From Mesostigma viride (taxonomy: Eukaryota; Streptophyta; Mesostigmatophyceae; Mesostigmatales; Mesostigmataceae), in NCBI GenBank assembly GCA_009746045.1, contig RPFO01001063.1, forward strand, positions 124,001 through 188,000: a stretch of DNA of 64,000 nt, in the 5' to 3' direction. The notes beneath the pieces are model-generated. The model did no database searches and was not told where the DNA came from. It saw nothing but the letters and a program-made list of their open reading frames with translations. Positions 9,711 to 36,431 of this stretch are shown one piece after another; position 1 is the stretch's first letter; every line of letters begins with the position of its first letter. Position numbers and translations under genes: made by a program.

Positions 9711-12700
9711 TGTCGCGTCTGCGTGCCACAATCTCCGGCGCCACCATGGCGGCTGGCCACTCAGCTTAATTTGGTAAAACCCAAATGAGCTGAGCTGACG
9801 TGCCTGCCTTAAGGGGACTCGCACGTCCAAAAGCCTGAAAAACAGACTTTAGTGAGTATCAGTTCCAATGCACATGGGAACCATCTAGTGATGATTGGGT
9901 ACCATAAATATGATGTTTGGACATTCATACCACCACTTGTTGGGGGTACTACCCCCAACCACGCACCGGTGGCGAGCTAAAAATAGAAAAAGACGCTATT
10001 TATGAGATATTTTGCCCAAGACAAACCACTTGTCTAAATGACCTGCCCATACATACCTGCAAAGTTCCCCCACTTTTTCAAAAGCTGGGCTATTTACATG
10101 GCCAAAATGGTCACATTTGTTTGAGTTATTAATTTTCCCGCAAAATGGGTACTTTTTTGAGCAAAAAAAAAATAAATCAAATCATTAACACATCAGATTG
10201 GGTCATCCATACATGCGATATTCCACTGAGTGGGGGGAAACACAACCCCAAAGTTTGAGCTCATTCTGACAAGCGTAGCTCAAGTTATTGATTTTCCTGT
10301 GATGCCACCTGGGTAGACGCTAAAAGAGAATTGAGCTAGTGCTGAGCCAAAATGACATCTGTTTTGCTACCCTAGACACCCAAAAACATGCCCACTTTGA
10401 TCACGGAGTGTGAGGAGGATGTCCGGAGCGTCATACGCCCCACCCCTCCATCGGCACAGCCAGCCTTGTGAGTCTACCCTTAACAACAAGGCTGGTAGGA
10501 CGACACGCCTGAGCAGCATATGTCATGCCTATCTCAGGCTAATAATGTGTGATTTTGTGCCAACAACCAAGTTGTTCCACCCAACAACACATTAAAAACC
10601 CTGTTCCAAAATGCCCAACAAGCCGGACATGTGGAGGACCACACACGCAGTATATAAAGAGAAAAAAAGCTGACTTTTTATCCAGCCAACCTGTGGCTAG
10701 CTGCTCTGGTTAGCATGACAAAGGCTATCATTTACTCAGTGGGAAAGGTGAAAAGACCATTGGAACAACCTACCTGACGCATGTGCCACCAAAGCATTGT
10801 GTCCCGCAAAATGCACACTGCCTCCTTTCTAACAAGCACGAGCCACTTTCTTTAGGAGACAGGTGCCAGCTCGTCAGTGTCTGGGTAATATGATGCTTAG
10901 GAAGACCGCTTGAATTTCCTCGAACACAACTGTCTATAAAGCAAAAGAAATTTCAGAGAAGCATGGAAATAAAAGCATTACACCTTCCCGACAGGTTGTG
11001 GGCCACGCGCTGCAGCAAGCCAGCCACGTCACAGACGAACTTGCTAAAAAACATCCAGGAATCCAGCGATGCAGCGCCAGGACCCCGCAACTTTCATGGC
11101 TGCATCTGGCCGGAAAGAAGGCAAAAAGCTTACGCTCAAGGAGCTAAGAAAGCAGGAAAGCGCTATCTTAGGACGTTTAATACAAGAACGTACCATAACG
11201 GGCATTTATTCGTGCCCAGGCGCACAAGAAAGGCCACCCTTTCATGGAGAGGTCGGGCGCGCATCGCGCAGGCCTATAATGTTATCTTACCGCAAAATGA
11301 CGGGAAAGGTAAAGATAGCAGCGGGAATTTTTACGGCTTTAGAAACATCATTAAACTAGCTTCCATTAGGACCATCAAAACTGGCAACAATCGACAATCA
11401 CACCTGCAGGCATCCATTATACTTTATTCATCCCGACAGAAATTCAGGCCGGACCCCCCCTGCCGATGGTAAAGAAAAAGAGCCCGCGACATTATAGATC
11501 GCAACTATCCCACCATAAATTAGAATCAGTAACTAATTTTCTCCAAGAATCGAGCATTTTTTCTGCTTTCCGCGAGCCAGATTCGTCACGTTTCGTCTAA
11601 AAGCAGTCACCATGGCCACTTCCGCAAGGGGTGCGCGCACCGTGCACCCACTTTTCACGGTACGGAGGGTACCGCGGAATTTTTTTGGCGCGGAAAATAT
11701 TCGCCGCGCCGAGTCCCCTTAACTGCATGCCCTGTGGGGTGGGCGAGGACCTGTCCCATGATTGATGACACAACACACACTTTGCACAGTCTGATGATGA
11801 AGCCGCACATGCGGAATTTATTGAGAAAGTTAATACAATTACAACACGTTGATAGTCTCAATATCGATGCACTCCATGCTCACGAGCCCGCAGTTAGGCA
11901 GCGCTCCATGACATGCTACCGGCCTTGCTCCCAAGGAAAGGGAGAAACACGAAGGCCACTAACGAGAAACTCGAAGAGACTACACGCTGCGTGAGAGTCC
12001 TCTTCGACTATGAACCAAACCATTCGTCATGCCACACGCATGACACACGCCGCACTTGTCAGTCCAGCCAGGAATGCCAAAACTATCTTGCTGCCTGAAC
12101 CATGCAAATAGAAACCGCATTCCAGTTGCCGTCCTGGCTTTCTACCACACATGCCAACAAAAGCAGGAAGGCATCCCGACAAATCTAAATTGCTACCCTG
12201 TTGCCGATCTCATCTCCTAGAGGCTCCGGCATTTCTGTCCCTGGGAATGTCCGGCATTGAGTCACGTCCACCAAGGTCGAAGCATAATATCCTTCAGACA
12301 ATCTGTACGCTCACACCTTGCGTGTGAGTGGCCCAGCAAACATTGCGTCTAATCGTTCCTTTCTAGAAGAAATCCCTTTGTAGGGCTGCCAGCGATTTCG
12401 CATTCATTCCAGCGATCTGGCTCCGCACCGCAAATTGTCCTTTTCCATTTTCTGTCCAGTCCTCATAACGTTGACCCGCTATTCTACACCACAAAGACAC
12501 CTGGTCTGTCAATAGCCTCGGCGCTGTTGAAGTCCAGCAGTCCAGCTCCAGCTCCAGCTGTCCACTAACACGCGTATGATCCTCTCGACGCTGCGCACTT
12601 GTGCTGCCGTCCGCTCAAGTCAGTGCTGCGCGCCCAGCTGTGCCTGGCCCGGCGCGCGTGCACGTACACTTTCGTCCGCTCTTATGCTGCAAGTGCTAGT

Positions 12701-12814
12701 GTCCCCCCCCCGGTCACTAGCCTTTGTCGAAAAGGCGTAGAAAACAAATTCCTTGCGCACGTCACGGTCTTGTGCATAGTGGGCGCCCGGATGACATAGC
12801 TCGCGTCCGTGACA
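9711..12814. repeat. Large tandem repeat unit 1 (uninterrupted copy)
   Basis: This unit has blocks C (9711-9957), X (diverged), A (11606-11763) and B (11769-12814). The same order recurs from 12821 to 25846, where it is interrupted twice. C and its copy at 12821-13066 both begin TGTCGCGTCTGCG and end GGGGGTACTACCCCCA; the first 110 bases are almost identical. A is about 93% identical to 16112-16270. B is over 99% identical to 24803-25846, with about five substitutions and one homopolymer length change by eye. X is far more diverged. The small ORFs inside (for example 10963-11472) are not recognised. It may be a non-autonomous derivative of the retroelement next door. Confidence 0.7.
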
Positions 12815-13078
12815 GCTGCATGTCGCGTCTGCGTGCCACAATCTCCGGCGCCACCATGGCGGCTGGCCACTCAGCTTAATTTGGTAAGACCCAAATGAGC
12901 TGAGCTGACGTGCCTGCCTTAAGGGGATGTGGCACCTCAAAACCCTTAAAATTGACATATGCTAATATCACTTGAAATTCATTTGCACAATGCTAAGTTA
13001 TGATTGGGGGCACTAAATAACATCTCTAGTGAGTTGTCCATGCACTTTTTGGGGGTACTACCCCCATATATACGCCAA

Positions 13079-14107
13079 TAATGCGCTATAATAAGATCAC
13101 CGAGCGAACGGCCACCATCGCCGCCCAACCTGCTGGTAGGGCTAGTGATGACCCCTCGACTCGCGCCTCCTGGGCGGACCTGCTCAAGAGCCAGGCATCC
13201 TCTACCACGACCGCCATCACCACCAAGCTCCAGGAGCTGGAAGACACGCGCCGCGAGGCCGCTGACCGCGACCGTCGCCGCTGCCGGGTCATCCTCAGGC
13301 GCTTCGACATGCTGCCGGAGGAGACCCCAGACTCTCTTCTCGACGAGCTGAAGAAACAGCTCTTGGCGCGCATGCAGCTGCCAGGTGCGATACTGCAGGG
13401 CGCCTACCGCCTGCCCCATCCACGGGCCAAGGCTGGGCCCCCTCCAGTGGTCCTCACCTTCAGCGACATCACAGCCCGAGTTCGGTTCCTCTCTCGCCGC
13501 AAGAAGCTGGTGGACACCTCCTGGTCGCTTGACGACGACCTGACGCCAGCCCAGCAGCAGCAACGCCGCGATCAGTGGCCCGACTACATCCGCCACAAGA
13601 CCAACCCCGAGAAGCCCCAAGTGTACTGGCGGGGCGGGGACCTCTACGTCAACAAGAAACTGTGGAAGCCCCCCCGGGCTTCCCCGGGATAGAGCACTCC
13701 AGCTAGTTGTCTAGATGGGGGCAATCGATGATGGGATAGCTTAGGCATTACAGCACTTGAAACGATATTAGCGCACAGCGTTATAGTACCTTCAATTAGC
13801 TCTGGCACCTTGTGGCCATCAGCTTGCGCCTTAATTAGCCGACGTCTTGAGCCCACCTCACATTTGTAGCATAAGCTATGCGTCAGCCTACCTATGGTAT
13901 TGCACTGGTTGTATTGCACCCACAGTGTTGCGCCCCGGCACCATGCCGTGGAGAGAGCGCTCTGTGGCCTGCCCACCTGCGGCAGTGAGAGAAGCTAGGG
14001 CGCCCTCCCTCCTTCTCACTGTGTATATAGGGTTGAAGGTTCCTTTACTCTGTATTGGCACCCACGTGACGCAGTCACGTGCTTATTAATTAATTAATGC
14101 GCTATAA
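13079..14107 (+). mobile_element. LINE-type insertion with 13-bp target-site duplication
   Basis: The 13-mer 'TAATGCGCTATAA' occurs at 13079-13091 and again at 14095-14107, a perfect direct repeat. Between them lie an ORF1-like coding fragment and a non-coding part. The insert ends in 'CACGTGACGCAGTCACGTG' and a 'TTATTAATTAAT' tail. A target duplication of this length together with a simple-repeat 3' tail is typical of target-primed reverse transcription. The insert is 1003 bp, so it is truncated or internally deleted; no endonuclease or reverse transcriptase is present. Confidence 0.75.
13092..13692 (+). CDS. ORF1-like nucleic-acid-binding protein of a LINE, 5'-truncated
   Basis: The open frame runs through the target duplication (its apparent ATG at 13081 lies inside it), so the original start is lost. 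About 200 residues remain. A charged, probably coiled-coil stretch ('LQELEDTRREAADRDRRR') is followed by an RRM-like segment ('RVILRRFD', 'AYRLPHPRAKAGPPPVVLTF', 'RVRFLSRRKKL') and a tail with 'DDLTPAQQQQRRDQ' and 'YWRGGDLYVN'. This order matches L1-type ORF1/Transposase_22-like proteins, which bind element RNA and act as chaperones. The stop is TAG at 13690-13692. ORF2 is absent. Confidence 0.6.
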
Positions 14108-16270
14108 ATAGCAAAAGACGCTAACTAGGGCTGGTTATGCCCCAGCCAATCCACAAAACAGGTTGACCCAAAAAGCACAAGCCGCGTAGTTGCTTCCAGG
14201 CACATCGCAAACAGCAACTTACATGGGGCATACGGACACCGCCGTTCAAAAAATAGCCCGTGGCGCCAAAAACGCGATTTTTTTCACACAATATTTTTTT
14301 TCACAAAATAAAACAATTCATAAACTTGTCAGATCAAGCCAAAAAGCACTATTAAATTTCGGCACGGGTGGTCCCAGCCACGGTCCAAGTTTGAGGTCAA
14401 TCGGACAACCCTAGCTCAAGTTATTGCGTTTGGCAGATGCCACTCTCACGACCGCTAAAGAAGGTTTTTCTTTGTACAAGGCCACTTAGGCATGATGTTT
14501 TCCATCCAAAGAGCCTGAAAGCATGCCCTACTCGATCACAAAACATAAGCAAACGCCTAGGCACCTCATCTGCCCTCACCTGCCCTCGGCATGGCCAACC
14601 TTGCCAGCGCAAGCATAGCAACACGATCGCTAGGCATACATGCCAAGAGAGCATACACTATACTCAACCCAAGGTTACCTTGTAAACTTCATGCCAAGAA
14701 CTCACCAAATCTATGACCAAAAGCACCTCTAACTCTTGCTCACTGATGACGACACATGCTCAAGGTCGGGGGTCACAGTGGCACGCACTGATTGGTTTCC
14801 TAGACGACCACCTGACAAGGCCCTAAGGACCACTCAGTAACCAAGGAAACACAATTACACTTTGCATGCCATCCAACATGCATCAAATACATGCTGAATA
14901 TGTTATGAAATACAAATAGGTGGCCACACGCCTCATACCCCTTCACCGTCCCTCGAGCATGGCCAGACTTATAAGCATGTGAATAGCAATAATGATGATG
15001 GCACTAAAATGCCTAATCAGCATTTTCTATGTTTCTCCCAGGGTAGAGTGTTAAGGTTTATGCCAACCAAGCTAATCAACACTGCAGCGACTCCTTAACT
15101 GCCCTACCTGAGATGGGCAACAAACTGGAACGATGGAGGGCAAGGAACCATGGAGATCATGGCATACAAAGCTTGCATGCAGTCAACCATGTCAACCATG
15201 GTTGGCTCAGCACATTGCAGTCTTTTCACATCATCATATCAAGGGAAAGCTCAAATAAACCAATGGTGGCAGCTATCTACATGCAGTCACACAAATGCAA
15301 TATCTCCAACATGATCGTCAGTAAAACACTTCCTCCCCTGCATGATAAAATGGAAAGAAACCATTGGCGGGCCTCCAGCGCATGAGCGCTGTGATGCCGC
15401 TGCGAAGAGAGGGTGCGTCACTCTCACACAACTAGAAGCTTCCATAAGCACAACATCCTTGCCAGAACACGTATCATGAAATACCTGAAACCTTCCCGAG
15501 AAGCAATAGGCTTCGACTGAAGCGGCCTTGACCACGACATCAACGAAAACAATCTAAAGCTGCCAGGTATTCGACAACACCACGGCAAGCAACGGCGAGC
15601 TAGCTGGCGGAAACTGCCCAAAAAGAACGGAAAAAACTTCGAACGATGAGCTAATAGAAGAAAGAACTGATAGCACAGAACATTCGCGACAAAACTATAC
15701 CTTGACTTCGCAGATCCCTCGCCCAGGCGCGCAACAACGGCCGTTCTTTCATGGAAGGTTCCGACATGCATTTGCGGAGGCCTGAAGAATTACTTACCGA
15801 GAATGGCCGAAAATGTAGCAAAAAGCACCAGTTCGGTTTGGAATTCAATGCTACCGATACGAATTCATCCTTCGCGGTCAAAAAGCCCCCGAAAACTGCG
15901 AATTTACAGCTGCTATCACGAATTCTATTTTATTCCGCGCGACGAAAAAATGCAGTTTACCCCCCATGCCGATGGCAGTAAAAGAAAGCAGCGATATTGT
16001 AAATCAGCTACTTGCCGCCACAAACCAACATCATTAAATCATCGTCTTCAACATTCGAGCATTTTTTTGGCATTTCTCTAGCCTTACATTGCTAGTTTCG
16101 CCTAAACGCAGTCGCCATGGCCACTTCCGCAAGGGGTGCGCGCACCGTGCACCCACTTTTCACGGTACGGCTGGTACCGCGAATTTTTTGGCGCGGAAAA
16201 AATTCGGCGCGCCGCGTCCCCTTAACTGCATGCCCTGTGGGGTGCATGGGCGAGGACCTGTCCCATGATT

Positions 16271-19200
16271 CCCCCCCTCGCTGGCGACCGGCCCCATCAC
16301 GAAGACAGCGATCGTACCAAGACAAGGGCAGCAGTGACCGCAGTCAAGCTGCGGGAGGTAAACTGCGCAGCGGTGCACACTGGACAAAACCAATCCCCCT
16401 CCGGAATGCTGGTGACCACTGGCTGCAAGCACTGCATGTGCTAACCACAATTACACTGATCACACAATAACATGGACTCCGCCTGATCGACCCGGTGACA
16501 AACCTGACACTGGGCGTCCTTGACTCGGCGAGACGTGTGCGGTTGGAGGTCGTGGACCAAATTGGGCAGCGAGCAGGGACTGAGATTGCTGAGGTTGTCA
16601 GTCGCACGGCTCCCGTCGGCGCCCTCCAAAATTGCCACTCCCGATGGTTTGATAGCCACAATGCGCAAAATGGTGGGCCCCGCCTCCACATCCAAAGTGT
16701 GCTTCAGCTGAGTGCGCAGGAAAACATACTGCCCTGGCCTAAACCGCAGCTGGCGAGCCATGTATGCGCCCCCCCGGCGCTGAGCGTAGCGCAGGGAGTC
16801 CCTGTGCTGAGCAATGAACAAGTTGTTCATCGCGATGGGCATGACCTTCTTAAAAGTCTCTGCCCTGGCCAGCACCTCAACCAAAAATTGCTGAGCGTTG
16901 TCGAAGGCCATGGGTTCGGGGTGCGCAACCTGTGCCTCCGTAGGCAAAAGAGGATTACGCCCGAACAGAAGGAAATACGGGGAGAAGGTAGCGAGAGACT
17001 CCTGGGGAGACATGCGATAACCCATGGCAATCCATGCCAACTCGCGATCCCACCTGGCCGACTCCGGCACCTGCAGGCTCCACTTGCGCAGCGCCTGCTT
17101 GACGGTCTGCACCAATCTCTCAGCCAAACCATTGGCCTGAGGATGCTCCCGAGAAGTGCGACGGTGATCAATAAGACATCCATCCAGCAACTCCTGGAAC
17201 TCACCCCTGAACTCACCACCCTGGTCCGTGACTACCTCCGCGGGAGCCCCAAACCTGGTGATGATGTCCGCAAAATGCTTCGCTGTGGTAGCGGCATGCT
17301 TGTCAGCAATGGGGATCAACTCAACCCATTTGCTAAAGCTCTCCACGCATACCATGACATAGAGGTTGCCGTCAGGGCTCTCCTGAAACGGCCCGCACAG
17401 ATCGACGTGCCAGCGATAAAACAAGCCCTTGATGGGAAGCGACATCAGCTCCTTGGCACCATGATCTGCGCTAAAGTTAGCCTTGGTTCGAGCACACGGG
17501 ACACAGCTGGCCACTACCTGGGCCACCGTGTGTCGCATGTTATTCCACCAATAGCTGGTCCGTACGAGGCTGAGCGTGCGATTGCCACCCAAGTGACCAT
17601 ACCGCTCGTGGTACGCCTGCACTATAGCAACGCGCTTGTCAGGCGGTGGGACGACCACCCTACGCTTGCCCAACAGCTTGTACAAAACCCCATCTTCCCA
17701 ACCATAGGTTGCAGCCCTGTGCTGCACCCTGTTCAACTCCGTCGCCTTCTGAGCAGGAGTCCAATCGACTGGAGTAGGAGTCAAGACAGCACCCTGCACT
17801 TGCTCCAAAACTCGACCATCTAGCCAGATATCAGCGGTGTAGCAATCAGCAAGAGAGCTACGCGCTAAGAGAGCCTGCACAGCGATCAGCTGCTGCAGAG
17901 AAGGATCAATGTCAAAGGACAGAGACCTACCCTCTTCCATAGCGCACACAGCTTTGGATGGCGTGAATGGCGACGGCCGCACCGGGTCGTCGCTGATGCC
18001 GAAGTCCGCCACAGAGTACTCGACACTGCGCCACCACGCCTCCTCCTCATCGTCGGCCGCATACCCAGCAGCGTTCACAAAGACCACAGAACCCGACGAG
18101 CCCTCGGCACCCATGGCCCGGGCTCCAGTGTGGTCAACAGTGGTAGGCATGGCGTATCGGGATAGCACATCGGCGTTGACATGGTCCTTGCCGGCCCGAT
18201 GCACAATGGTCATGTGGTACTCCTGGATAATCATGGCCCATCGGGCGAGCTTACCCGTCAGGTTGGTGTTGGTCATTAGCCACTGAAGCGGCTGGTGGTC
18301 TGTCACCAGAGTAAACACGCGCCCAAATAAATACGGGCGAAAGTGCTTGATGGCCCACACCACAGCCAGTGCCTCCCCCTCATAGGAAGAATACCGGCTC
18401 TCCGCTGGGTTGTTGCTGCGACTAGCATAAGCAATAACGTGCTCGCGCCCATCACCATCCTTTTGCGCCAAGACCGCACCCAGTCCTACCTTGGACCAGT
18501 CGGTATATAACACAAATGGCAAAGCATAGTCAGGGGCGCGCAGAATCGGTGCCGACGTGAGCTCCTGCTTGATTGTCTCGATGGCGCGTTGCTGTGCGGG
18601 ACCCCACGCCCACACGCACCCCTTCTTGAGTAACTCGGTCAAGGGCTTCACCTTGCTGCTGAAGTTCTCAATGTAACCTCGGTAATAGCCAGCCAAACCC
18701 AAATACGCCCGCACCCCTGAGACATCCGTGGGTACGGCGGCCTGCGCAATGGATTCGACCTTGGCGGCATCAGGCGTCCGGCCACCCGGCACAATCTGAT
18801 GACCAAGGAATGAGAGGGTCCGCTGGGCGAACTTGCACTTCTCAGGGTGCAGCCGCATATTATGCTCCTCGAGAGCCAAGCGAACCTGCTCCAAGTGCGC
18901 CAGGTGCTCCTCAAATGTCGCGCTAAAGACGATTACATCATCAATGTAACAAGCGGCGAAAGGAAGACCTGCAAGCACTTTGTCCATAGCTCGTTGGAAA
19001 ACAGCACTAGCGTTGCGGTGCCCAAAGGGCATGCGCACCCACTCATACAAATTGCCGCCCCCCCAGAATGCAAGCTTCCGCTGATCCTCCGGCGCAACTG
19101 CGATCTGATGAAAGCCGCTACGCAGGTCCAGCGAGGACACAAACTTCACATGAGGAGATATCTTATCCAGGACATCATCCACACGTGGCATGGGGTAACG

Positions 19201-22200
19201 GTCCACGGGTGTGTGTGCATTCAGCAACCGCAGATCGGTGGCCATGCGCATACCCGTCCATGCCCCGGTGATAGCGTCCTTCTTGGGCGCAACGACAACG
19301 GCAGCAGCATAGCTGGAGGAAGATTGCCTGATGATACCGGCATCCTCTAACTCCTTGCATTGCTCGGCTACAAAATCCAACTCGGCCTGACTCAGGCGAT
19401 GCTGGCGTCGGAACAAAGGAGTGTCAGTGTCCAATGGAACACGCATGGTCCCACCATTGAAACACCCCAGTTCATCACTTGTGAAAGCGAAGGCCCCCCT
19501 TGCAGTGCCTAGCCACTTTAGCATGGCTGAGCGCTGCGCATCAGAAAGGTGTTCGCCAATAGCCCAGGGGTGCGTATCCGCGGGATCACCCACAGCTACC
19601 GCATGTGCCTCAAGATGCGGCGCCCTAGCCGCATCGTCGTGGAACAAGGAAAAGGCTGCCACACCTGGTGTGACACCCACCGCCGGAGCCTCGCGTGCCG
19701 CACGGTGTATTACCCGATGCAGCGTGGGCTCGCCGGCCAGCACGGTGCTGGTCAGCAGGGCGGTCATGAGAATGATAGTCCACACCTGTCGCAGACGCCA
19801 CCCCCATGCTGATGAAGTCCCCGTCGCTGCAGGGCGCTTCAGTTTGGCTGCGCGCGCCTCAACCTGCTGAGGCGGATTGGCTGGGGACGCCCCCCCAGAC
19901 TGGCGCACGGCAACCGATGCAAGCAGCACATACCCGACCTGCAACACCGACATAGCCTGGCCTATCAAAGACCAGCGCTCACTCTCGAGCACGCCCGGCA
20001 GCGCCGAGGCCCCGACATGAAAACCCATGCTGGCCTCACGAAATTCTGCGGGTGGCTGCACCAACAGACCGGTGGTAGTGTCCCAAACGAGACCCTTACC
20101 CCGATCACGGTATGCTGTCGACCCTTGGTAACTGACCAGGGTCGGCAGTGCACACATGGGGCTCCCGACCCGGTTGACGCGTGCATACGGTGGGCGATCC
20201 TCGCTATCCACCTTCTGCGTGACTAGGTGGGAAGGCAATGCTACCTCCGCAGACACACTCGGATGCTGCCTTGCTACGGCCCCCAAGACCGCCTGCACAC
20301 CGGTCGCACACGCCACGTTGGTCCAATAGGCACGCAAACGATGCGTGAGCCCACCCAGCCCTGCGTTGTCACACACGATGGGCTCCCCCAGGAGTGCCAC
20401 GATTGTAGCCCAGTCCTCCCGCACCGCCTGATGTGGGCTGTCACCCGCCACAACGTTCTCAAACAGATACGCAGGCGGATGGGGCTGACGCGACTGCAAC
20501 AGTCCCACCACACGCAACAGTTCCCAGAACAGCGCGCTACGCGGATCGGCTAGCCCCCGCCCTTGCCCTGCCTGGCTCAGGCCCTGGCACTCCCAACCCG
20601 CAATTACCAAGTCGATGGCATGATGCCTGCGCAACAACTGCTGCACCTGCACCTCACCGATGGCTCGGATATCTTGAGGACATTCCCCAAACGGGTCACG
20701 CCATGCTGATGGCGGAAACTGCGCGGGATACTCTCGCGACAACACGCCACAGTGACTGAAGTACACCTGACGCGCCTTGTGCGATGGCTCTACCGCGATG
20801 AGTTTACGGCACACGCCGCCTGCGGCCAAAAAGCCTGCAATGCCCCCTCCGATCCCCGCAAACAGTTCCAACACTACCGCACCCTTGGCAAAATCAGGGG
20901 CCTGCGGTAAGATTGCAGCAGAAAAATTACCTTGGGCCTCCGAGACACCCGGTTGCACCAAAGTGAGGCCATGGCTGGCCATCTGAGGAATGGTGATGAC
21001 GGCTTCAGTCACCCGCTTGCGCATAGCCAGCTGCCGCGTGGACGTCACAGCATCCAGCGACCACTGCGTGCGCATCTTGGCAATGCTCGCCGTTGGCTGA
21101 GGCAGCACCGTCCGATGCTTGTCCCACGCCGATGAGCCCGCCGCCCGTACCTCCACCATGCTGACCTCCACCACGCCCGCAGCCGCGGAAGGGTTGAGGC
21201 GTGCAGCCCCGGCTGAAGAACTGAAGCATGAGACCGGCACACTGGCCCGCTTCAGGCCAGCCCCATCCCAATCAGGGATGTAAGATGCCTCCTCCGCCCT
21301 ATAGTCCACCTGAACCATGGCGCGAGCAAGGACATCCACCCCGAGTAGTGCGGAATATCCACACTTGTTGACCACCAGCGCATACGCGGACACGGTGGTC
21401 ATGCTAGAGGCGCGCAACGGATTGAAAATCACGTTGACTTTAACCGCCGTCATAGCGTACGGCTTACTAGCCGGACCCTGCCAACCTGACACAGACACGG
21501 GGCTTTCCACTAAGCCACCGTTCTCGTAGGTCAGGTTCAGCATGGTGGCCAAGTCTGTGCTGATGACTAGCGGCTGAGCACCGCTATCAAGCTTGACTGC
21601 GCCAACCAACGGACATGTCACCATGTCGCTCCATACATCTCCACAGGCTCCAACTGCTTGGAACGCTATGGACGGCTCACCATTGGGGTATGGAACCACC
21701 GTGGGAACCTGGGGAACTGCACTAGTGCGCTGCTGGCTACTTGTGCTGACCACTCCCGCTTGCACCACGGGCACTGCGGCTTCTACCGGCTGACGCCCGT
21801 AGGTGACGGACTCAGAATTGCGCAAGGTGCGCACATCATGCCCATCTGCGAACAACTGGATCTCGGACACAACCGACCCCAGCCACTCAACCCCCTTCTG
21901 CCCGAAGGTGTCGACCACCTGCCGTGCTGAAAACATGGGTACGTCCACAATGAACGGCATTGGGTACACAGGCGCCAATCGCCTACGCTGCTCCAGCCCA
22001 GCAGGGTTCGCATGCTCAAAAGCAGATTGCACCCCAGCCAGCGGCATGGAAAAGGACGCGGGCAACTGCCCGGCAGGCAACATGGGTGCCTGCTGAAAAG
22101 AAAGCGGGCTGCGTGCCTGCTTGCCTTTGGTAGCCTCCGCAGCGTTGATCTCGACGTCACCCGGCATGGGCGCCCAGAATGGGTCCTCCCGGTACACCGT

Positions 22201-24802
22201 CGCGAATTGGTTGGGGGGCGCCGTCGCCTCCTCACCATGCTTGATGGCAGCCACCTGGGCTTCCATCGAGTCGGTCTTGCCCGCCATCTCGGCGAAGTGG
22301 ACCGTCTTGATGCCCGCGGCTGGACACTTGTTCATCAGGTGCCACTTCGTGTCTGCCCCATGCGGCTTCGTGCAGCGGCTTGGACACTCGCGACTAAGGT
22401 GCCCATCCTTGTCGCAAAGGTAACATTTACCGCGTGACGGGGTGGGTGCGCCCAGCGCGCCTTGCACGCCCTGCGCCTCCTGAGTCCCATCCGATGTCGG
22501 CGGACGACCGCCTCCGCCTCGACCACCACCGCGACCCCGACCACCGTAGCCACTGCCGCCGCCACCACGACTGACACCGCCGCTGCCACCCTGACCGCCA
22601 CCGCCGCTGCCCCCGTGACCGGCGTTGCCACCACCCTGAGTGCCGACATATTCACCGCGCCCCGCACCAGGCAGCCGCTGGCCACCCTTGACCGCGATGG
22701 CCTTCTCCATCTCAGCCATCTTCTTGCGCATCTCAGCCAGCTCAGACGAGATACCCTTCTCGCCTTCCGCACGCTTCCTGAGCAGCCGCTTGAATGCTGC
22801 ACAGAGAGTCACCAAAGTCCACTCCCCACCGGGCGGCTCCGGAAGATCGATGGCCAGCAGGGGCACTGCACTCCGCCATAACCGGCAAGCCTTGGTCTGC
22901 GTATAATCAGGCACTTTGCCCGCAAACGCGAGAAGCCGGTCAAGGGAGAAAGCCGGATCCTCACCCTCGGCGACGGTGAACGCTCCATTCCATTCCGCGA
23001 TGGCCTTGACGTGCTCAACTGGGTACTCCAGCCGCAGTTGCTGCCACAGCTGCTCTGCCGGGTCGACATCGAAGATGATCGAGTCGAGATCCGGTGTGCC
23101 CATGTCCGTGAGCGCAAACCATATGTCCGTGCGATGACATCGGTCCACGAGCGCTCGGTAATGCTGGACCAAAACCTGGACCTTCTTCTTGGTCAGGTCA
23201 TGGAAAAAAAGGTGAATAAAATCCATCACCATCTCATGGCGAAGAGGATACCCCGAGGCATAACGATAAGTGTTACAATGAGCTCGGAAGAGCTCATAGG
23301 CTTCCTCTAAAGTCGCACCCGTGCCTGCTGAGGTGAACTTCTCGCGAAGCTCCACCTTGGGCAGCGATGGCACACGAGTGGATTCGCCATGCACGCCGTA
23401 CGGCATGCGGTGGGGTCGCTGGACGTCGTCGCCCTCACCCCATGGTATGCTGGCTACCTCCCGATCGACTTGGCCCCAGCCGAAGTCTGACCGAGTGCCG
23501 CCAAGCCTGGGCCGCCCTGCGGTGCCACCCAACGGCGTTGCTGCCGCCGTCATGGGTGGCCGACCTGTGCTAAACAAGCCACCTGATGCTCCCCCCCTGG
23601 GGGCTGCACCATACCCGCCGCGCCACGATAACGTGCCTTGGTTGGGTGCCCGTAGGTTCCCCCCCAGCGTATAAGATGCGTCGGCAGTCGACCGGGTGCC
23701 TACCCGACCGACGTTCGGCTGCAGCTCGTCATCCTGCGCCATTTCCCCGTCGCCCCGCCGTTGACCGCTTGGTCCGACGCGTGGCTGACTGGGCTCAACG
23801 TTGCGTAGTGGACCTGTCCCACTGCGCTCTTCGTCGAAGTGTCCGCGTTGGTCGCGCAGCGCCTCATGTCGCCGCGCTTCCTCGGCAGCGGCCTCCTCGT
23901 CGGCAGCCTGCCTGGCCTCGGCGTCGCGTTGGGCCGCAGCTTGGCAGGCGCGTGCAGCTTCCGTGGTTGCCTCCGCCTGCCGCCGTTGCTCAGCGCGCTC
24001 CGTAGCACGCCTCGCTTCAGCCGTAGATTCCGCGCGCTCCAAAGCAAGTCGCACAGTTTCTTCAACAAGCGTCGCCTGTTGCGATAACTGCGTCGCTTGC
24101 TGAGCTCGGAGTGCCGCCAGCTCTGCCGCTTGCTCTTGCAGCAGGCGCAGCACTTGGGTAAGAGCACCACCGTCCCCTGCCGAAGAAAGGGAAGGCGCTC
24201 CATTACCTAACAAAGCGGTGTCCGCACTAGTGCCGAGACGACCGCTGGGCGGGTCAGTTGCTTGACCGCCCGTAGCTGCCGGCGCTGACCCACCACTGCC
24301 TGATGCTGTGGGGTCAGTTCCTGACATGTTGATGGTGGTATCGACCCTGGAGAGCTCCTGCCCGTCGGTGTCGACGCCCGTGTTGGCACAGCCTGCGTGG
24401 CTTGCCAAAAACGCTGTGACCGACCTAGTGTGATATGACATAAACTGCCACAACCACTACCAAGTAGCAACGGTCTAATCTGAAAGACTTAATGGTTGAT
24501 CAGGCCACTATGTGTGCTAGTCTTCCCCAGAAAACTGCACACCGTCTCTCTTTGCTGAAATGAAAATGTTCCTTTGCAGATGGAGCTAGTCTCTTCGAGT
24601 AATGAAAAGAGGGCTCTCAGCCGAGGACAAGGAACTGTCCCTCGTGCCTGATGACCACCTTCTTGATCCCCTTGTGTACCGTCGCGTGCCGCGTTTGAAT
24701 ATCCTTGCTGGGGCGTTAGCTAGACGCTCCAACTACTCTAATTGCGACAATATGATGGTGCAAGAGGGTGCTTTTGCCTCCCCTGCTATAGAACAATGCT
24801 TT
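16271..24802 (-). mobile_element. Ty3/gypsy-like retroelement segment carrying a DNA methyltransferase
   Basis: This 8532-bp segment is present in repeat unit 2 and absent from unit 1. It holds one polyprotein ORF, a 349-bp leader (24454-24802) and only 26 bases after the extended stop. No direct repeats of its own flank it, and no primer-binding site was recognised next to 24802. Either the A and B blocks belong to very long LTRs, or the segment moved without LTRs. On the coding strand the segment ends in GGGGGGG next to block A, which fits a polypurine tract before a 3' LTR. Confidence 0.75.
16297..24327 (-). CDS. Gag-Pol polyprotein with cytosine-C5 DNA methyltransferase and interrupted PHD finger
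   Basis: The frame is open from 24453; the ATG at 24327 ('MSGTDPTASG') is a likelier start. Residue numbers here count from 24453. Order: coiled-coil Gag; CCHC knuckle 'CYLCDKDGHLSREC' (about 674-690); protease 'LDSGA' (about 954); methyltransferase (about 1190-1510) with 'LELFAGIGG', 'WECQGLS', 'ENV', 'THRLRAYW', 'REASMGF' and 'IGQAM'; reverse transcriptase with 'YIDD' (about 1836); RNase H 'YTDWSKVGLGAVL'; integrase HHCC zinc site and D-D-E core ('WHVDLCG', 'VTDQGGEF', 'NGLAERL'). The first stop is TAG 16441-16443. The frame past it completes a PHD finger and ends at TGA 16297-16299. Gag and Pol share one frame. The element would copy itself by reverse transcription and could methylate DNA, an inference from the intact motifs. 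Confidence 0.9.
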
Positions 24803-25846
24803 CACAACACACACTTTGCACAGTCTGATGATGAAGCCGCACATGCGGAATTTATTGAGAAAGTTAATACAATTACAACACGTTGATAGTCTCAATATCG
24901 ATGCACTCCATGCTCACGAGCCCGCAGTTAGGCAGCGCTCCATGACATGCTACCGGCCTTGCTCCCAAGGAAAGGGAGAAACACGAAGGCCACTAACGAG
25001 AGACTCGAAGAGACTACACGCTGCGTGAGAGTCCTCTTCGACTATGAACCAAACCATTCGTCATGCCACACGCATGACACACGCCACACTTGTCAGTCCA
25101 GCCAGGAATGCCAAAACTATCTTGCTGCCTGAACCATGCAAATAGAAACCGCATTCCAGTTGCCGTCCTGGCTTTCTACCACACATGCCAACAAAAGCAG
25201 GAAGGCATCCCGACAAATCTAAATTGCTACCCTGTTGCCGATCTCATCTCCTAGAGGCTCCGGCATTTCTGTCCCTGGGAATGTCCGGCATTGAGTCACG
25301 TCCACCAAGGTCGAAGCATAATATCCTTCAGACAATCTGCACGCTCACACCTTGCGTGTGAGTGGCCCAGCAAACATTGCGTCTAATCGTTCCTTTCTAG
25401 AAGAAATCCCTTTGTAGGGCTGCCAGCGATTTCGCATTCATTCCAGCGATCTGGCTCCGCACCGCAAATTGTCCTTTTCCATTTTCTGTCCAGTCCTCAT
25501 AACGTTGACCCGCTATTCTACACCACAAAGACACCTGGCCTGTCAATAGCCTCGGCGCTGTTGAAGTCCAGCAGTCCAGCTCCAGCTCCAGCTGTCCACT
25601 AACACGCGTATGATCCTCTCGACGCTGCGCACTTGTGCTGCCGTCCGCTCAAGTCAGTGCTGCGCGCCCAGCTGTGCCTGGCCCGGCGCGCGTGCACGTA
25701 CACTTTCGTCCGCTCTTATGCTGCAAGTGCTAGTGTCCCCCCCGGTCACTAGCCTTTGTCGAAAAGGCGTAGAAAACAAATTCCTTGCGCACGTCACGGT
25801 CTTGTGCATAGTGGGCGCCCGGATGACATAGCTTGCGTCCGTGACA

Positions 25847-26436: not shown

Positions 26437-29400
26437 TTAAAAAAGTGCCCACTTCAGCAGATGCAGCACAAGGGACAAACCGACAACAGCCTTACCGATG
26501 CCCAGTCCACTCCGCTGCATCGCGGCAAACACGAGGCACAGACCTAATGTGGAGATGAGTGGCAGGAGAACCTCCAACATGACTGTCAGCGGCATGTTGG
26601 AGGACACCTGGCGCAGCAGCCAGAACGAGAACGGTTCCATCAGCCTCAGTACGTGGGGGTGGAAAAGATAGATGGGGAGGGAGGCCCCTCCCAGCCTGGT
26701 GACCGTGCCATCCAGCGCTGGCATAATGGCCAGCATCGCAAACGCCATCACCATAGCCTCGGCTAGCGCGCCCACGTGGCCCAGCACCCTCAGCGGCCAC
26801 TCCCGCCACCACGCCCCAATCTCCCACGTGGCCATCAGGTCGGCGACGGTGGCAAAGCGTGCTGCCTCGCTGGAGCGCAGGTCCAGCCCCGAGAGGATGC
26901 CGGGGAAGAACGTTGACCGCACCGTGAGCTGCACAAAGATGGCGGCCAGTGCCACGCGAAGCCACACATGCGACCGCGCCAAGTGCACCAGGCGGGTGAT
27001 CTGACTGTTGTATGCATACCCGATGGCAAATGGCATCGCGGAGGTGAGCACACGCGGCCCCAGCGGCTCCCAGCCCAGCTGGTGCATGCCCCAGGGACCG
27101 AACCACATCCCACGAACACCCACTGCAGAGGCCGGGGGCCATAGCAGCGCAAACAGAATCGGAAGCAGGAACTGCACCGTGGCGGCGGCTAGTAGCAGGA
27201 GCACAACACCACCATTCCGGGTCCTGGAAGGAACACGGTGGGTATTGCTGTGCCATGTGCCCACGCATAGCCACAGCAGCAGCTGGTTGAAGGCCAGCGC
27301 CCACAGCCCCCACAGGTGGGCCGTGGTGGAGAAGTGCTCCTGGGGCGATGACCGCACGAGGTCGTCAAACGTGCGGGATACGCCAAACTCCATGACCAGC
27401 GCCAGCATGACCGCCAGCAGGGGAGTGCGCAGGGATGGTCGCGCGCTGCCCGCCGCGGCTCCCATCCCTGACAAGATGGACAGGCCCAGGACGCCCCCCT
27501 GCATGGAACGCCCTGGGCACAAAGTTGGCGAGCGAGGTGTTGTCGTGCGGGGCCCACAGCCCGGCCAGGGGCGTGTTCTGGAAGCAGCGCAGGTTCTGGC
27601 CCCCGCAGTGGCCAAAGTGGAGCATGACGACGGAGAAGCTCCACAGGAAGCGCAGGTTGGACGTGACAACCTCCAGTGCACCGGACATTGCGTGCTCATC
27701 ACCTGACGTGGCTGGCTCTGCATTGCTGGATGACAGGGATGTGGCAGCATTAGCACCCCTAGAAGCGCGGTCATGCTCGCTGGCATTCATGCCTGCCGTC
27801 CTGCCCAGTGTGGCAGCAGCCTCAGCGGCCATGCTGCTGATGGTGCGGTGGCTGAACACCGACAGTTGCTGGTCGCCCGATGCAAGAGGTGCGAGTGCAG
27901 GGTCCCTGGCCAGCTCCCTGGCCAGCTCCCTCTGGAGCTGCACCGCCACCAGTGAGTTTCCCCCGATGTTGAAGAAGTCGTCGAACACGGACACGCTGGG
28001 CAGGCGCAGCACCTTCCCCCACAACGCGGCCAGCTTGGCTTCCAACGGGTCCATCCTGACTGCCGCATGCGCCACGGGCGCCTCACGGCCACCCCCACCT
28101 GTTCCCACGCGTCGCATCTCCGCCATCTCCGCTGTCGCCATGGCCAGCAGCTTGCGGCGGTCGAGCTTGCCGCTGATGAGGCGTGGCAGCTCGTCCACGC
28201 ACAGGATGCGCGCGGGAGGGCGTACAGCGGCAGTTGCTGCCGAAGGGCCGCCAGCAGCGCCTCCGGGACATGCCCCCGGGGGCTCACCACCGCCACCAGC
28301 GTGTCATGGCCCGCCGCGTCCGCGAGGCCCTGCTGCGTGGCGGGCACCAGCACGGCCCCGGCAGCAGCCACGCCTGGCAGCCGGGCCATGGCCTGCTCCA
28401 CAAAGCCAAGCTCCAGGCGTACGCCCCTCACTTTGACCTGGTGGTCCAAGCGGCCCATCAGCGCCAGGTCGCCACATGGCAGCAGCCGCGCGAGGTCCCC
28501 CGTGCGGTACAGGAGAAGCGAGGAGCGGCTGGTTTTTCCATCAGCAGCGTCTGTGGAGCTTGGGGTCAACCTGCCTATTGGGGGATGCTGAGGTAAGCCG
28601 GATGGTGGCAACCCTGCAGCCCCGTTCCCAGCAGGTCGGCGACGGGTATGTGTGTGAAGCGTGACGTGGTCAGCTCCGGCTGGTGGAGGTACCCACGCGC
28701 GACCACGCCGCCGCCCACACATAGCTCCCCGGGAACGCCCAGCGGTGCCAGCTGGCCATGGTCGTCCAGGACCAGCGTGACGGCACGCAACAGGGGGCGG
28801 CCGACCGTGACATGCCCAGCGGCCACCATGGCCCGCGTCACGGGCGCCCACGTGGCGTCGCCGCACGTCTCCGTGGACCCGTACAGGTTGACCAGCTGGC
28901 AGCGGTCGCCCGCGGCTGCCAGGAATGCCTGCGCCAGGGACAAGGGGAGCGCCTCGCCGCTGCTGATGACAAGCGAGAGGGGCCCCTTGCGCCAGGTGGC
29001 ACGCGCACCCTCTTCCTCCTGCGTGTCTGCCAGCATTGCCTGCAGCAGCGACGGAACGACCACCAGCCGCGTGACATGGGCGGACACTGCCACATGCAGC
29101 AGAGACAACGGGTCGCGCGCCTCGTGCGCGGTCGCCAGCACTACGGGCACGCCGCGCAGGAGCGACCCGAGGATCTCCAGCGTGTGGTCCACAAACGACA
29201 CCGTGGTGCGCGCCAGGCAGGCTTCATCGGGCGCAAAGGGGCACGCCGCCCAGTAGCCCTCCAGCTTGGCCACGAGCGCGCGGTGGGTCAACTCCACCCC
29301 CTTTGGCACGCCGGAGCTGCCAGAGCTGAACAGGCAGACTGCCGCGTTGTCAGCATGGATGGCCGGACCTGTTGGCGTTTGCTGGTTTGGACCCCATTTT

Positions 29401-29969
29401 CCCCTTGTGCTTGAGGGACTCCTGGCATCCGCAACGAGGTTGTCCACGATAAAGCACGCGGTTTGCTCCAGCCCGACCATGCCCTGCAACCGCCCGGCGA
29501 CAGCGTGGTCCCACAGCAGCGCCTTGACCGACGCGACAGCCAACAGGCTGGCCAGGTAGGCAGGCGGGTTGGCGGGGTCAAGGGACACGTAGCATGCGCC
29601 GGCCTTGAGCACACCCAGCATGGCGGCCAGCATAAGCAGCGACCGCTCCATGACGATGGCCACGCGCGCCTCTGCACCCACGCCGCTGGCAGCTAGCACG
29701 GCAGACACCATCACTGCGGCGTCTTCCAGCTCGGCAAACGAGAGGGCTGCTTCTTGGCAGCGCGCCGCTGTGTCGGCAGGCCGGGTGGCCACCTGGCAGT
29801 CCCACAGGTCACACAGCGTGAGCGGGGAGGGAGGCGTCTGCAACCAACGAGTCAGCTGTGATGATTCCACCAACTGCGCGCGCTCCGCCTCGGTCATCAT
29901 CGGCAGGCGGCCCACCGGCGTCTCGGGGGATGCCACGGCGCTGCTGGCCAGGCACACCAGCTGCTGGCC
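26437..29969 (-). CDS. NRPS terminal module: adenylation, carrier, membrane acyltransferase
   Basis: The adenylation domain has 'LFSSGSSGVPKGVELTHRAL', 'SFVDHTLEILG', 'LYGSTE', 'GELCVGGGVVARGY', 'YRTGDL' and 'GRLDHQVKVRG'. The carrier domain reads 'FFNIGGNSLVAVQLQRE', with its phosphopantetheine serine at 27953-27955. After a low-complexity linker comes 'LRFLWSFSVVMLHFGH', with the Arg...His pattern of acyltransferase family 3, then about ten hydrophobic segments and 'LPIYLFHPHVLRL'; the stop is TAA 26437-26439. The usual thioesterase or reductase is absent, so product may be handed to a membrane acyltransferase (inference). The frame breaks at 28580-28584 (a G run one short), near 28214 (one base missing) and at 27494-27499 (a C run one too long). 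Repairing these by eye restores continuous homology. Confidence 0.8.
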
Positions 29970-32900
29970 CAGCCGCTGCATGCTGGCCTCACACCACAGG
30001 TCCGTCCGGTACTCAAGCAGCAGAGTCAGGTTGCCGGTCTGTGCTTCATCAAACAGGACAAGGGTCACATCCACCTTAGAGGAGCCGTGGCGGTAGACAC
30101 GCCGACCGGCAAGACCCTGGCATCCGACCCCAGTGCCATCTCACTCATGCCAGCCACCTCGTTGGGCATGATCATGGCTTGAAAAATGGGATTGCCACTC
30201 ACACTCCCTGTCGCCCCCACAGCCTCCACCACCTTGTGGAAGGGTGCATCTGAATGTTCCATGGCGGACAGGACCACATCGCGCACGTGCTGCACCATGC
30301 GTGAGAAGGGCAGCGCCCCGTCCACATCCACACAGAGGGCCAGCGGGTTGATGAAGTACCCGACCAGGTGCTGCACCTCGGCTTTGTTGCGCCCATTCCA
30401 GGGTGTGCCCACCACCACCTTGTCCTGCCGGCTGCAACGCCCCAGCAGAGCCGCCCATAGTGTCAGCATGACCATGAACAAGGTCGCACCACATTCCTGT
30501 GCAAGCTTCTTCAGCGCCTGAACCACGGCCTTTTCCAGGGAAAATTCCGAGTAATCCCCTTTGAGGGACTGCAATCTAGGCCTTGGCTTGTCGGTCGGCA
30601 GTTCCAGGAGCGATGGTGCTTCTGACAGATGACCCTTCCAGTACGCCAGCTGGGCAGCCATCTCCCCTGAATCCTCCAACCAACGCCGCTGCCACACCGC
30701 ATAGTCGCTGTACTGCACTGGGAGTGGGGGCAAGCGCGCCTCGACACCCTTCACGATTGATGAGTAGATGTGGCAGAGCTCACGCATGAGCAGCACCCCT
30801 GAGAGGCCGTCACTCACCGAGTGGTGCATGTTCACCATGAGGGCACTGGAGTGGTCACCCCTCTGTGCCAGCAGGCAGCGCACCAGGGGCCCTGTGTACG
30901 GGTCAAAAGGTGTCGAGGCCTCCCTATGGAGTGCGGCCCGCATAACTTGGTCGTCATCCCCTGCATCCACCACCTCAAACGGGAGGACAAAGTCATCGGG
31001 AGGCACAACCACCTGGACAGCCACTGGCACACCCTGGGAAGCCGCCTGCAGTGCTGGCATAGCATAATGGGTCCGAAGCGCTTCGTGACGTCCAACCACC
31101 TCCTGCATGCTGCGTCGCAAGATGACGACATCCACGCGGCCAACCACACTCCACCAGAGTCCCATGTTGTAGGCAGGGCTGGTCGGGTCCAGTTCATGTA
31201 ATGCCAGCATCTGCTCCTGGCCATACGAGACGGGAGGCAGCATGCCCGTGGCCATGTCTCCACGGAGGGATTGCATCCGCAGCTCCACCGCATGCTCCCA
31301 TGTCACCTGCCTCCCACACGCCATCACCGCCGCCAGCTCCGCAACGCTTGGGTTTGCCAACACCGTCGTCACCCGCAGGCCTTCCCCCGCGCCAGGGAAC
31401 TCGGCCAGTCGCTCCCGCATCTGGTGCACCAGTGCCATGGCCATGAGCGAGTTGATGCCAAACTCGTGGAAGCTCGCCAGCACGCTCAGCGAAGCCACAC
31501 CCAGCACGTCTTGGCACACGGCCTGCACGCGTGCCTCGTACACGTTTCGAGGCGCCACATACTGGCGACCGCCGCTGCTGCTCAGATCCACCGGGGGAAG
31601 TGCCCTCGCGTCCACCTTGCCCGAGACGGTCACCGGGAACCTCTCCAGGGCCACCACCGCCGAGGGAACCATGTAGCTGGGGAGCTTGCGCCGAGCCGCG
31701 TCCATCAACGCATCCACCTGGACACTGGCAGGGACTACATAGGCCACCAGAAGCTTGCTAGTGGTGACATGTGCATCAGTATGCCCAGCCATGTCCTGCA
31801 AAATGGCCACTGCCTTGGCCACACCTGGGCAGGCCTCCAGGATGCTCTCCACCTCGCCCAACTCGATGCGAAACCCGTGCAGCTTCACCTGCCGGTCCAA
31901 GCGCCCCAAGCACTCCAGGCGGCCATCAGGCAGCCACCGGGCCAGGTCCCCGGTACGATAGAGCCTGCCCGCCCCCAGTGGGTTGTCAAGGAACCTCTCC
32001 CTGGTCAGCTCTGGTTGCTTGATGTACCCCCTGGCCACGCCCATGCCGCCGATGCAGAGCTCGCCAGGGACCCCCACCGGCACGGGCTGCAAGCAGCGGT
32101 CGAGTACGTAGATCCTCACGTTGGGCAGTGGGCGGCCAATGGCAATAATGTCATCCGAGGCGTCCATGGGCTCCATGGTGGCAGACCCTGTGCACTCGGT
32201 TGGGCCGTAGCTGTTGTACAGCCGTCGACCGGCCGCCCAGCGCCGCATAAGGTCCAACGGGAGCGGCTCGCCCCCCGACACGAGTGCGGCCAGGCGGGGG
32301 AAGTTCGTCGGGTCCAGTGTGGCCAGCAGCGAGGGTGTGAAGCGCGCAAACGAGGCAAGGTGCAGCCGCTCATGCAGGTTGTCATGTGGCCGGCATGTGA
32401 CCAGCGCCCCACCGCAGCACAGCGTCCCAAATATCTCCGAGACGGACATGTCAAAGCTGGGGCTGGTCAGCTGCAACACGCGGCTGCTGCCGTCCAGCTG
32501 CCACCTGTCAATCACGCATGCCACCAGGTTGCACGCGCTGCGGTGCTCCACCATGACGCCCTTGGGGCGGCCTGTCGTGCCTGACGTAAAGATGACATAG
32601 GCAAGGTCTGCAGGGGACACTCTAAAGGAAGCAGCGGGCCTTGTTACCGGGAGGCCAGGAGAGCTGACACAGCAGGAGGTCGCCGGCACCTCCAGCAGCG
32701 TCACATTGGCGTGCATGTCAGCACCCCATGGGGGTTGCTGGCACGGGCTCGTCAGGAGAAGGCTGATGTCAGCATCCGCCACCATACCCTGCACACGCTC
32801 GGCTGGGTACTCAGGGTCCAACGGCACGTACGCACACCCAGCCTTGAGGATGGCCAGCATACCCACCACCATCTCCGCACAGCCCTTCATGCACAGGCCA

Positions 32901-33203
32901 ACCCGGCCACCCACCACCGTGCCGGCATCCTGCAAACTGCGAGCCAAGGTGTCCGCGTTGCTGCAACTCCCGGTAGGTCACGTGCTCCGTCTCCATCTCA
33001 ACCGCCACATTGTCTGGCGTGCGAGACACCTGCTCATCAAACAGCTCGTGCAAGCACTTGCCAGCACAAGCAAAGGCCGTGTCTGTAGCGTTCCAGTCCT
33101 CCACCACCTGCCTGCGCTCCGCCTCGGTCATCATCGGCAGGCGGCCCACCGGCGTGTCGGGGGATGCCACGGCGCTGCTGGCCAGGCACACCAGCTGCTG
33201 GCC
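29970..33203 (-). CDS. NRPS module 3 (adenylation-carrier-condensation)
   Basis: In order: the linker 'GRLPMMTEAERRQV'; an adenylation domain with 'KAGCAYVPLDPEYPAERV', 'YVIFTSGTTGRPKGVMVEHR', 'SFDMSVSEIFG', 'YNSYGPTECTG', 'YRTGDLARWLPDGRLECLGR' and 'FRIELGEVES'; a carrier with 'FGINSLMAM' (serine 31448-31450); and an LCL-like condensation domain with active-site 'MHHSVSDG' near 30806-30829. The adenylation domain should activate an amino acid, the carrier holds it as a thioester, and the condensation domain joins it to the residue on module 4. Two bases are missing near 32951-32960 compared with modules 1 and 2. A frame change near 30090-30100 separates it from module 4. Confidence 0.85.
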
Positions 33204-36200: not shown

Positions 36201-36431
36201 GTAGGTCACGTGCTCCGTCTCCATCTCAACCGCCACATTGTCCGGCGTGCGAGACACCTGCTCATCAAACAGCTCGTGCAAGCACTTGCCAGCACAAGCA
36301 AAGGCCGTGTCTGTAGCGTTCCAGTCCTCCACCACCCGCATGCGCTCCGCCTCGGTCATCATCGGCAGCCGGCCCACCGGCGTCTCGGGGGATGCCACGG
36401 CGCTGCTGGCCAGGCACACCAGCTGCTGGCC
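33204..36431 (-). CDS. NRPS module 2 (adenylation-carrier-condensation), swapped adenylation core
   Basis: It is almost identical to modules 1 and 3 in the adenylation N-terminal lobe, carrier (serine 34681-34683) and condensation domain ('HHSVSDG' near 34040-34063). About 34.99-35.94 kb differs: 'SFDASVAEVFG', 'CIAGEMVPLHMATSWAAGR', 'NGYGPTECCVAST' and 'GELYIGGAGVARGY'. By alignment to GrsA, the pocket residues at 235, 236, 239, 278, 299, 301, 322, 330 and 331 read D, A, A, V, C, A, G, V and A. No substrate is assigned. Frame breaks occur near 35181-35190 (one G missing), 34263-34270 (one base missing) and 33551-33553 (CCC where sister modules have CCCC). Confidence 0.85.

Follow-up and report, generated by a model that had tools for sequence, protein, structure and literature searches.

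The locus raises two questions: whether a cytosine-C5 DNA methyltransferase has become part of the polyprotein of a Ty3/Gypsy retrotransposon in Mesostigma viride and, if so, what such an element might do with it. The original prediction placed the ordered motifs of this enzyme in a single frame between the protease motif LDSGA and the reverse transcriptase motif YIDD. Within the window (the whole stretch of 64,000 nucleotides analyzed here) this arrangement was borne out, but on the minus strand; translation of 19925-20885 on the plus strand meets many stops. The stop-to-stop frame covers 16441-24456 (minus strand), encodes 2671 aa and has its first ATG at about 24327. Its features, with the evidence for each, are the following.

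16441..24456, minus strand: polyprotein frame, 2671 aa (open reading frame and motif positions)
22378..22431, minus strand: CCHC zinc knuckle, residues 676-693 (PF00098, 20.8 bits, at the cut-off)
21577..21591, minus strand: aspartic protease motif LDSGA (motif alone)
19921..20889, minus strand: DNMT3-like C5-cytosine methyltransferase, residues 1190-1512 (Pfam, profile and predicted fold)
20845-20862, minus strand: methyltransferase motif FAGIGG
20575-20592, minus strand: methyltransferase motif ECQGLS
20587..20589, minus strand: codon of the catalytic Cys in Glu-Cys-Gln
20449-20460, minus strand: methyltransferase motif ENVV
20323-20343, minus strand: methyltransferase motif HRLRAYW
20020-20040, minus strand: methyltransferase motif REASMGF
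18793..19287, minus strand: reverse transcriptase, residues 1724-1888 (PF00078, 2.7e-27)
18937-18948, minus strand: reverse transcriptase motif YIDD
18217..18531, minus strand: RNase H, residues 1976-2080 (PF17917, 1.8e-38)
17140..17649, minus strand: integrase, H2C2 zinc-binding region and rve core, residues 2270-2439 (PF17921, 9.7e-17; PF00665, 2.2e-10)
16441..16509, minus strand: PHD finger, first half only (in tblastn, P0006 and P0008 continue beyond the in-frame stop)

Pfam reports in this frame a CCHC knuckle, a C5 methylase, a reverse transcriptase, two RNase H models, two integrase zinc models and an rve core. The order of reverse transcriptase, RNase H and then an rve integrase within a single Pol is a trait of Ty3/Gypsy elements (Metaviridae); on the gag and protease side, the signs are a PF00098 match at its cut-off and the LDSGA motif alone, with no protease family detected by Pfam in the 2671-aa frame at E up to 0.01. 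In the window copy the frame breaks off within a PHD finger, truncated by an in-frame stop (16441-16443) that all ten other copies inspected lack at this place. The remaining half finger lies below Pfam detection and its PDB matches to PHD fingers are weak (best 0.0047); it was identified because two related polyproteins with a C-terminal PHD finger (PF00628), the JGI metagenome protein P0006 and the Chlamydomonas reinhardtii protein P0008 (CHLRE_09g398141v5), align on beyond the window stop. Homology to the window frame starts at one and the same nucleotide (2037 of the frame) in four of the ten copies (C335b, C887, C667 and C1b), which therefore seem to form a subfamily with a different gag half.

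Searched against methyltransferase families, as the original prediction had proposed, the domain exceeds the PF00145 cut-off of 22 with 41.4 bits (E 1.5e-10) in a match that spans motifs I-VI only, and it matches TIGR00675 with an E of 5.5e-12, but at 46 bits, below the model cut-off of 100.65. A single-sequence PDB search gave weak matches, the best being to a plant DRM (4.4e-5), and a profile built from seven sequences matched DNMT3A at 1.6e-23. The predicted structure has the fold of a methyltransferase (mean pLDDT 80.6, pTM 0.85; weak at 211-214, 244-246 and 255-269), and its residues 5-330 align to DNMT3A, so that the part bearing motifs IX and X is also present. In blastp with the domain alone, all seven phage enzymes compared outscore DNMT3A and DNMT3B; the best profile and fold matches instead favour DNMT3A/DNMT3B. 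Together with the recurrence of the domain across the genome, the Pfam match and the predicted fold support the original reading of a C5 methyltransferase built into a Ty3/Gypsy polyprotein. The two outcomes named there as refuting, absence of a methyltransferase fold and a stretch confined to this copy, did not occur.

This recurrence was assessed in a 439.9-Mb assembly of 2243 contigs that includes the window and may contain near-duplicate contigs, with searches that rank the best candidates first and are thus biased towards open copies. The 961-nt methyltransferase query returned 314 candidates; among the best 40, which were scored, 15 (the window's included) reached full score and 25 fell 5 bits short of it. 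Fifteen of the 20 loci fetched show no nucleotide difference and five show one, and the methyltransferase stretch is open in 20/20, a figure biased by these being the best matches. A DNMT3-like phage enzyme (P0010) used as query gave 329 candidates, the best 143 of which were scored. All of these align in the same way, over query residues 60-160 at 39% identity, and their aligned stretches are free of stops; the match at the window's own place belongs to the 2671-aa frame. The Mesostigma sequence P0001 yielded 496 candidates, of which the best 139 were scored and six of these contain internal stops. The search for further copies, another step put forward with the original prediction, hence found the domain in at least 143 places of the genome. 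As a separate observation, a EukProt entry labelled Prorocentrum lima (P0012) is identical to the polyprotein in 142 of 144 residues over 19714-20186 of the window, which reflects either contamination or a very recent transfer. A dinoflagellate host, which this entry might suggest, was rejected: a myosin tail encoded in the window is far closer to plant Myosin-17 (303 bits) than to myosin Vb (47 bits), and the Mesostigma gene model P0001 is 100% identical to genome DNA, so that the host is M. viride.

Comparison of the window family with L098, a locus of the P0001 family, gave a pS of 0.737 and a pN of 0.228 for the methyltransferase (323 codons, 66% identity). The resulting ratio of 0.31 falls between that of the reverse transcriptase (0.19) and those of the linker after the domain (0.53), the protease (0.58) and the linker before it (0.82), although only the rank of these ratios is to be trusted, since synonymous changes are near or at saturation. 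For the methyltransferase, the reverse transcriptase and the second linker, two further loci (L100 and L101) gave the same ratios; their first linker gave 0.75, and the protease lay beyond their frames. At the level of codon comparison, these data show purifying selection on the methyltransferase between the two families, and show that selection has retained a DNMT3-like domain in a Ty3 element that amplified recently.

The most distinctive trait of the domain is the Glu that takes the place of the usual Pro in motif IV, the catalytic Cys being kept. This substitution, already pointed out in the original prediction, is no error of a single copy: Glu precedes Cys in all 20 loci retrieved for the window family, the window copy included, in all six retrieved for the P0001 family, and in P0002 (also from Mesostigma), P0003, P0005 and P0006, the Mesostigma sequences P0001 and P0004 as available not showing the motif. 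Because the trait is kept between domains that are 34-42% identical, a defect of one copy is unlikely. Every other C5 methyltransferase compared lacks Glu-Cys in motif IV, which reads PCQ in the seven phage enzymes and in the metagenome protein P0007, and PCN in DNMT3A/B; P0008 has lost both the Cys and the ENV motif. A 51-aa query against IMG/VR retrieved seven loci (L049-L055), six of which (L049-L052, L054 and L055) have PCQ while L053 ends short of the motif; whole-domain and P0003/P0006 queries found no relatives there, and the pattern AGWECQ occurred in 41 IMG/VR stretches, none of them a methyltransferase. Two scans of prokaryote genomes found no relative, a plasmid search gave five weak records only, and a phage search gave 303 records at E up to 0.01, from which the seven used for comparison were taken. 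A viral or bacterial donor with Glu-Cys was consequently rejected, as none appears in the IMG/VR, prokaryote-genome, plasmid and phage collections searched. Phage C5 methyltransferases (e.g. that of Pelagibacter phage HTVC134P) are the best non-eukaryotic single-sequence matches, with 38% identity over about 105 residues, but they are stand-alone genes with PCQ. Glu-Cys represents an unusual catalytic variant that is open to a simple assay.

The ends of the element depart from a canonical pair of long terminal repeats. The end regions on both sides were fetched for ten other copies, and the features of the window copy are best read against them.

9711..25846, minus strand: whole element A1-coding-B1-A2-B2, 16.1 kb with two inserts (repeats; layout and ends from other copies)
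24803..25846, minus strand: A1, the 5' repeat, beginning TGTCACGG (99.3% identical to A2)
11769..12814, minus strand: A2 (99.3% identical to A1)
12821..16274, minus strand: B1, about 145 bp of repeat interrupted at TTAA by a 3299-bp insert (12923-16221)
9711..11763, minus strand: B2, ending GCGACA, split by a 1906-bp insert (9813-11718) at the same TTAA
16269..16279, minus strand: purine run just before B1, a possible plus-strand primer

In eight of the ten copies the frame end is followed by B (about 145 bp); six of these eight continue through a two-base joint into A, and five of the six then reach a second B. The full layout is A-coding-B-A-B, with the 3' side of this DIRS-type arrangement of split direct repeats complete in 5/10 copies; copies C1a and C335b stop at the first B and thus have the short form A-coding-B. 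Neither form corresponds to two complete identical LTRs flanking the coding part. A reading of B1 and B2 as long diverged repeats was rejected, because B measures about 145 bp in the other copies and is interrupted by inserts at both its occurrences in the window. These inserts (1906 and 3299 bp) differ from each other, have similar terminal inverted repeats (GGGGAC.CGGC) and lie at the same TTAA; they resemble non-autonomous DNA transposons of the piggyBac type. Target-site duplications of 4 bp were found in all four of the ten copies in which both ends are visible (GGTT and CATA in long forms, ATTC and GCAT in short ones), and the flanks of the window copy (ATCG/GTCG) agree in three of four bases. 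In place of the DIRS hallmarks sought, a tyrosine recombinase and the absence of target-site duplication, the element thus has an rve integrase and 4-bp duplications, and on these grounds it is set apart from DIRS. A tRNA primer site was sought by eye next to the 5' repeat, where the bases following A1 show no TGG start. The two integrated forms would be compatible with a circular intermediate that contains a B-A joint.

The relatives of the domain provide a view of its history. P0006 and P0008 have a Ty3-type Pol and a PHD finger like the window family, but they differ in the place of the domain, which lies between RNase H and integrase in both; in the window it lies before the reverse transcriptase, and in P0002 and P0003 it follows the protease sequence. 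PF00145 is not reported in P0006 or P0008 at E 0.01, and their kinship to the window domain is indicated by blast (5.8e-45 and 6.8e-10, respectively) and by the tree. Identity to P0006 is 37.9% in the methyltransferase, 41.3% in the reverse transcriptase-RNase H region and 43.8% in the integrase; to P0008 it is 25.3%, 44.4% and 46.0%. A maximum-likelihood tree of 19 sequences, arbitrarily rooted and with P0007 and P0008 on long branches, places the window, P0001, P0003, P0005, P0006 and P0008 in one clade (100/98), within which P0005, P0006 and P0008 group together (98/95). P0007, DNMT3A/B and ten phage and IMG/VR enzymes (the seven phage sequences, L049, L054 and L055) fall outside this clade. 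The tree envisaged in the original prediction is in this way realized in part: the retrotransposon domains form a clade apart from DNMT3A/B, while DNMT1, DRM and DNMT5, like plant and algal host DNMT3, are not among its sequences. By domain content P0007, a JGI metagenome protein of 1770 aa with a PCQG methyltransferase at the frame start, a reverse transcriptase and an RVT_3-type RNase H, is another retroelement with a related enzyme and without the Ty3 layout.

Blast and tree together show, at the level of sequence, common ancestry of the window domain with those of other retrotransposons. Because these domains share Glu-Cys and a single clade, we favour one capture followed by a move within Pol. 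The two placements would also be expected had different Ty3 lineages captured kindred methyltransferases on two or more occasions, with no move within Pol. We hold this to be unlikely, albeit deserving of real weight, given that Glu-Cys is common to both placements and that the clade stands apart from the phage enzymes, DNMT3A/B and P0007, in a tree that lacks plant and algal host DNMT3 and has P0008 on a long branch.

As to function, we consider it probable, from sequence and structural modelling, that this is a Ty3/Gypsy retrotransposon with a working DNMT3-like C5-cytosine methyltransferase in its polyprotein, the predicted activity being de novo methylation of cytosines on its own cDNA or new insertions. 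The domain would act most likely in CG, a site that retrotransposon DNMTs can methylate de novo (PMC5890265) and that accounts for more methylation in M. viride than any other (PMC6947507). Made within Pol, the enzyme would find its target in the element's cDNA or newly inserted DNA, and the methyl mark might silence new copies, lessen harm to the host and hence selection against the element, and so allow its spread to continue. By analogy with the general roles of PHD fingers, the one behind the integrase may read histone H3 and steer integration. This suggests an element that marks DNA itself rather than relying on the host, and the mark could serve self-marking or the blunting of host silencing, both anticipated in the original prediction. 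The catalytic Cys and the ENV motif are kept, and in comparison with P0006 the methyltransferase is conserved nearly as well as the reverse transcriptase-RNase H region and the integrase; the Glu in motif IV and the higher blastp scores of phage enzymes count against a working enzyme. CpG ratios were uninformative.

The same altered motif IV might indicate a domain that no longer methylates and persists as a folded spacer, or as a module that binds DNA or AdoMet and is required by Pol during its assembly or processing. The Chlamydomonas relative, which retains the place of the domain with the Cys and ENV motifs lost, lends some substance to this idea, as it implies that the enzymatic function of the domain can be dispensable. 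Nonetheless, the domain of P0008 has fallen to 25.3% identity against 44-46% in the rest of Pol, which is the look of catalytic loss, and the window differs from it, with Cys, ENV and the other motifs kept there as well as in P0003 and P0006. A non-catalytic role hence strikes us as improbable.

We likewise regard as quite improbable an active enzyme whose main role is other than self-marking in cis, such as the methylation of host sequences in trans or, jointly with the PHD finger, a part in choosing silent chromatin as a target or keeping it silent. The presence of a PHD finger after the integrase in P0006, P0008 and the window family would suit it. So would the host setting: Mesostigma is reported to lack DRM (PMC10991848), and the DNMT3-like query met only matches of retrotransposon shape, with no host DNMT3 ranking above the retrotransposon copies among the best 143 of 329 candidates scored, a result compatible with a host gene because introns break genes and 143 of the 329 were scored. 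Against it, CMT/DMT orthologues are reported in this host (PMC6947507). The notion that the elements supply DNMT3-type activity to their host is thus suggestive only. As for a chance insertion or misassembly in the window copy, the idea is practically negligible and was rejected, with nothing found in its favour and with at least 143 matching genome places, a second family (L098) whose frame is open across protease, methyltransferase and reverse transcriptase, and an independent JGI Mesostigma viride gene model (P0001) identical to genome DNA (100%).

With self-marking as the preferred reading, the system offers a natural test of why an element would mark DNA: its copies are numerous and nearly identical, it comprises two diverged families in which the domain is under selection, and its host has CG methylation but lacks DRM. 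A bolder scenario, which we hold to be doubtful, would have a DNMT3-like Glu-Cys enzyme captured once by a PHD-finger Ty3 lineage before the chlorophyte/streptophyte split (or transferred later between the two), then moved within Pol and catalytically lost in Chlamydomonas; in Mesostigma, these elements would be the sole source of DNMT3-type de novo methylation and would help set the CG methylome of the host.

The precedent named in the original prediction proved right: DNMTs are reported from LINE and DIRS elements of dinoflagellates and from a Gypsy element of Klebsormidium nitens, a charophyte (PMC5890265). The latter, KnitGypsy-Dnmt3 (de Mendoza et al. 2018), is the closest in kind, being described as a charophyte Gypsy element with a DNMT3-related domain in the Pol frame, a DIRS-like repeat layout (Fig. 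4 legend) and a methyltransferase under purifying selection (PMC5890265). Protein searches gave no match labelled Klebsormidium, several matches having no organism label. SymbioDIRS-Dnmt3 and SymbioLINE-Dnmt of Symbiodinium are also retrotransposons with a C5 methyltransferase (PMC5890265), but the former is a DIRS with a tyrosine recombinase and the latter a LINE, in contrast to the rve integrase and 4-bp duplications seen here. DNMT3A and DNMT3B differ in having PCN for ECQ and in standing apart in the tree, and the ADD and PWWP domains were not found by Pfam in the 2671-aa frame. DNMT3 inside retrotransposons of streptophytes and dinoflagellates is mentioned in PMC12344493, and methylase-bearing Gypsy and DIRS elements of green algae and charophytes are referred to in general terms in PMC6338049. 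The accessible text of open-licence papers on Mesostigma and on charophyte, DIRS and Gypsy elements contains no description of the Mesostigma element, and open-licence literature gave nothing on a Chlamydomonas Gypsy with a PHD finger. Klebsormidium is thus already known to harbour Gypsy elements that combine such repeats with a DNMT3-related domain (PMC5890265); added here are motif IV with Glu-Cys, the PHD finger, the occurrence of the domain at two places in Pol and its decayed relative in Chlamydomonas, KnitGypsy-Dnmt3 having been compared by description for the first three. More generally, these data carry retrotransposon-borne DNA methylation beyond Klebsormidium to the streptophyte base and, in the form of a decayed relic, into Chlamydomonas, and the capture may therefore be much older than one genus.

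Several other features came to light in the genome and the window. The assembly contains stand-alone C5 methyltransferases in high copy number (L102, L103-L109 and more) that look bacterial or viral: a 364-aa frame with one and the same score occurs at ten places and a 313-aa frame at 16. A second conserved frame (MLVNTDDLPE...) adjoins L102 and L103, and they are possibly another mobile or viral family. On its minus strand the window itself carries, at 28578-39882 and 45967-47280, tandemly repeated units of about 3.23 kb with modules like those of non-ribosomal peptide synthetases (AMP-binding, carrier and condensation). At 59670-60602 (minus strand) it encodes a myosin XI-type tail with a DIL domain (PDB: plant Myosin-17, 303 bits, against 47 for myosin Vb), and at 56625-58649 (plus strand) a DcpS_C/zf-C2HE protein, which we take to resemble aprataxin.
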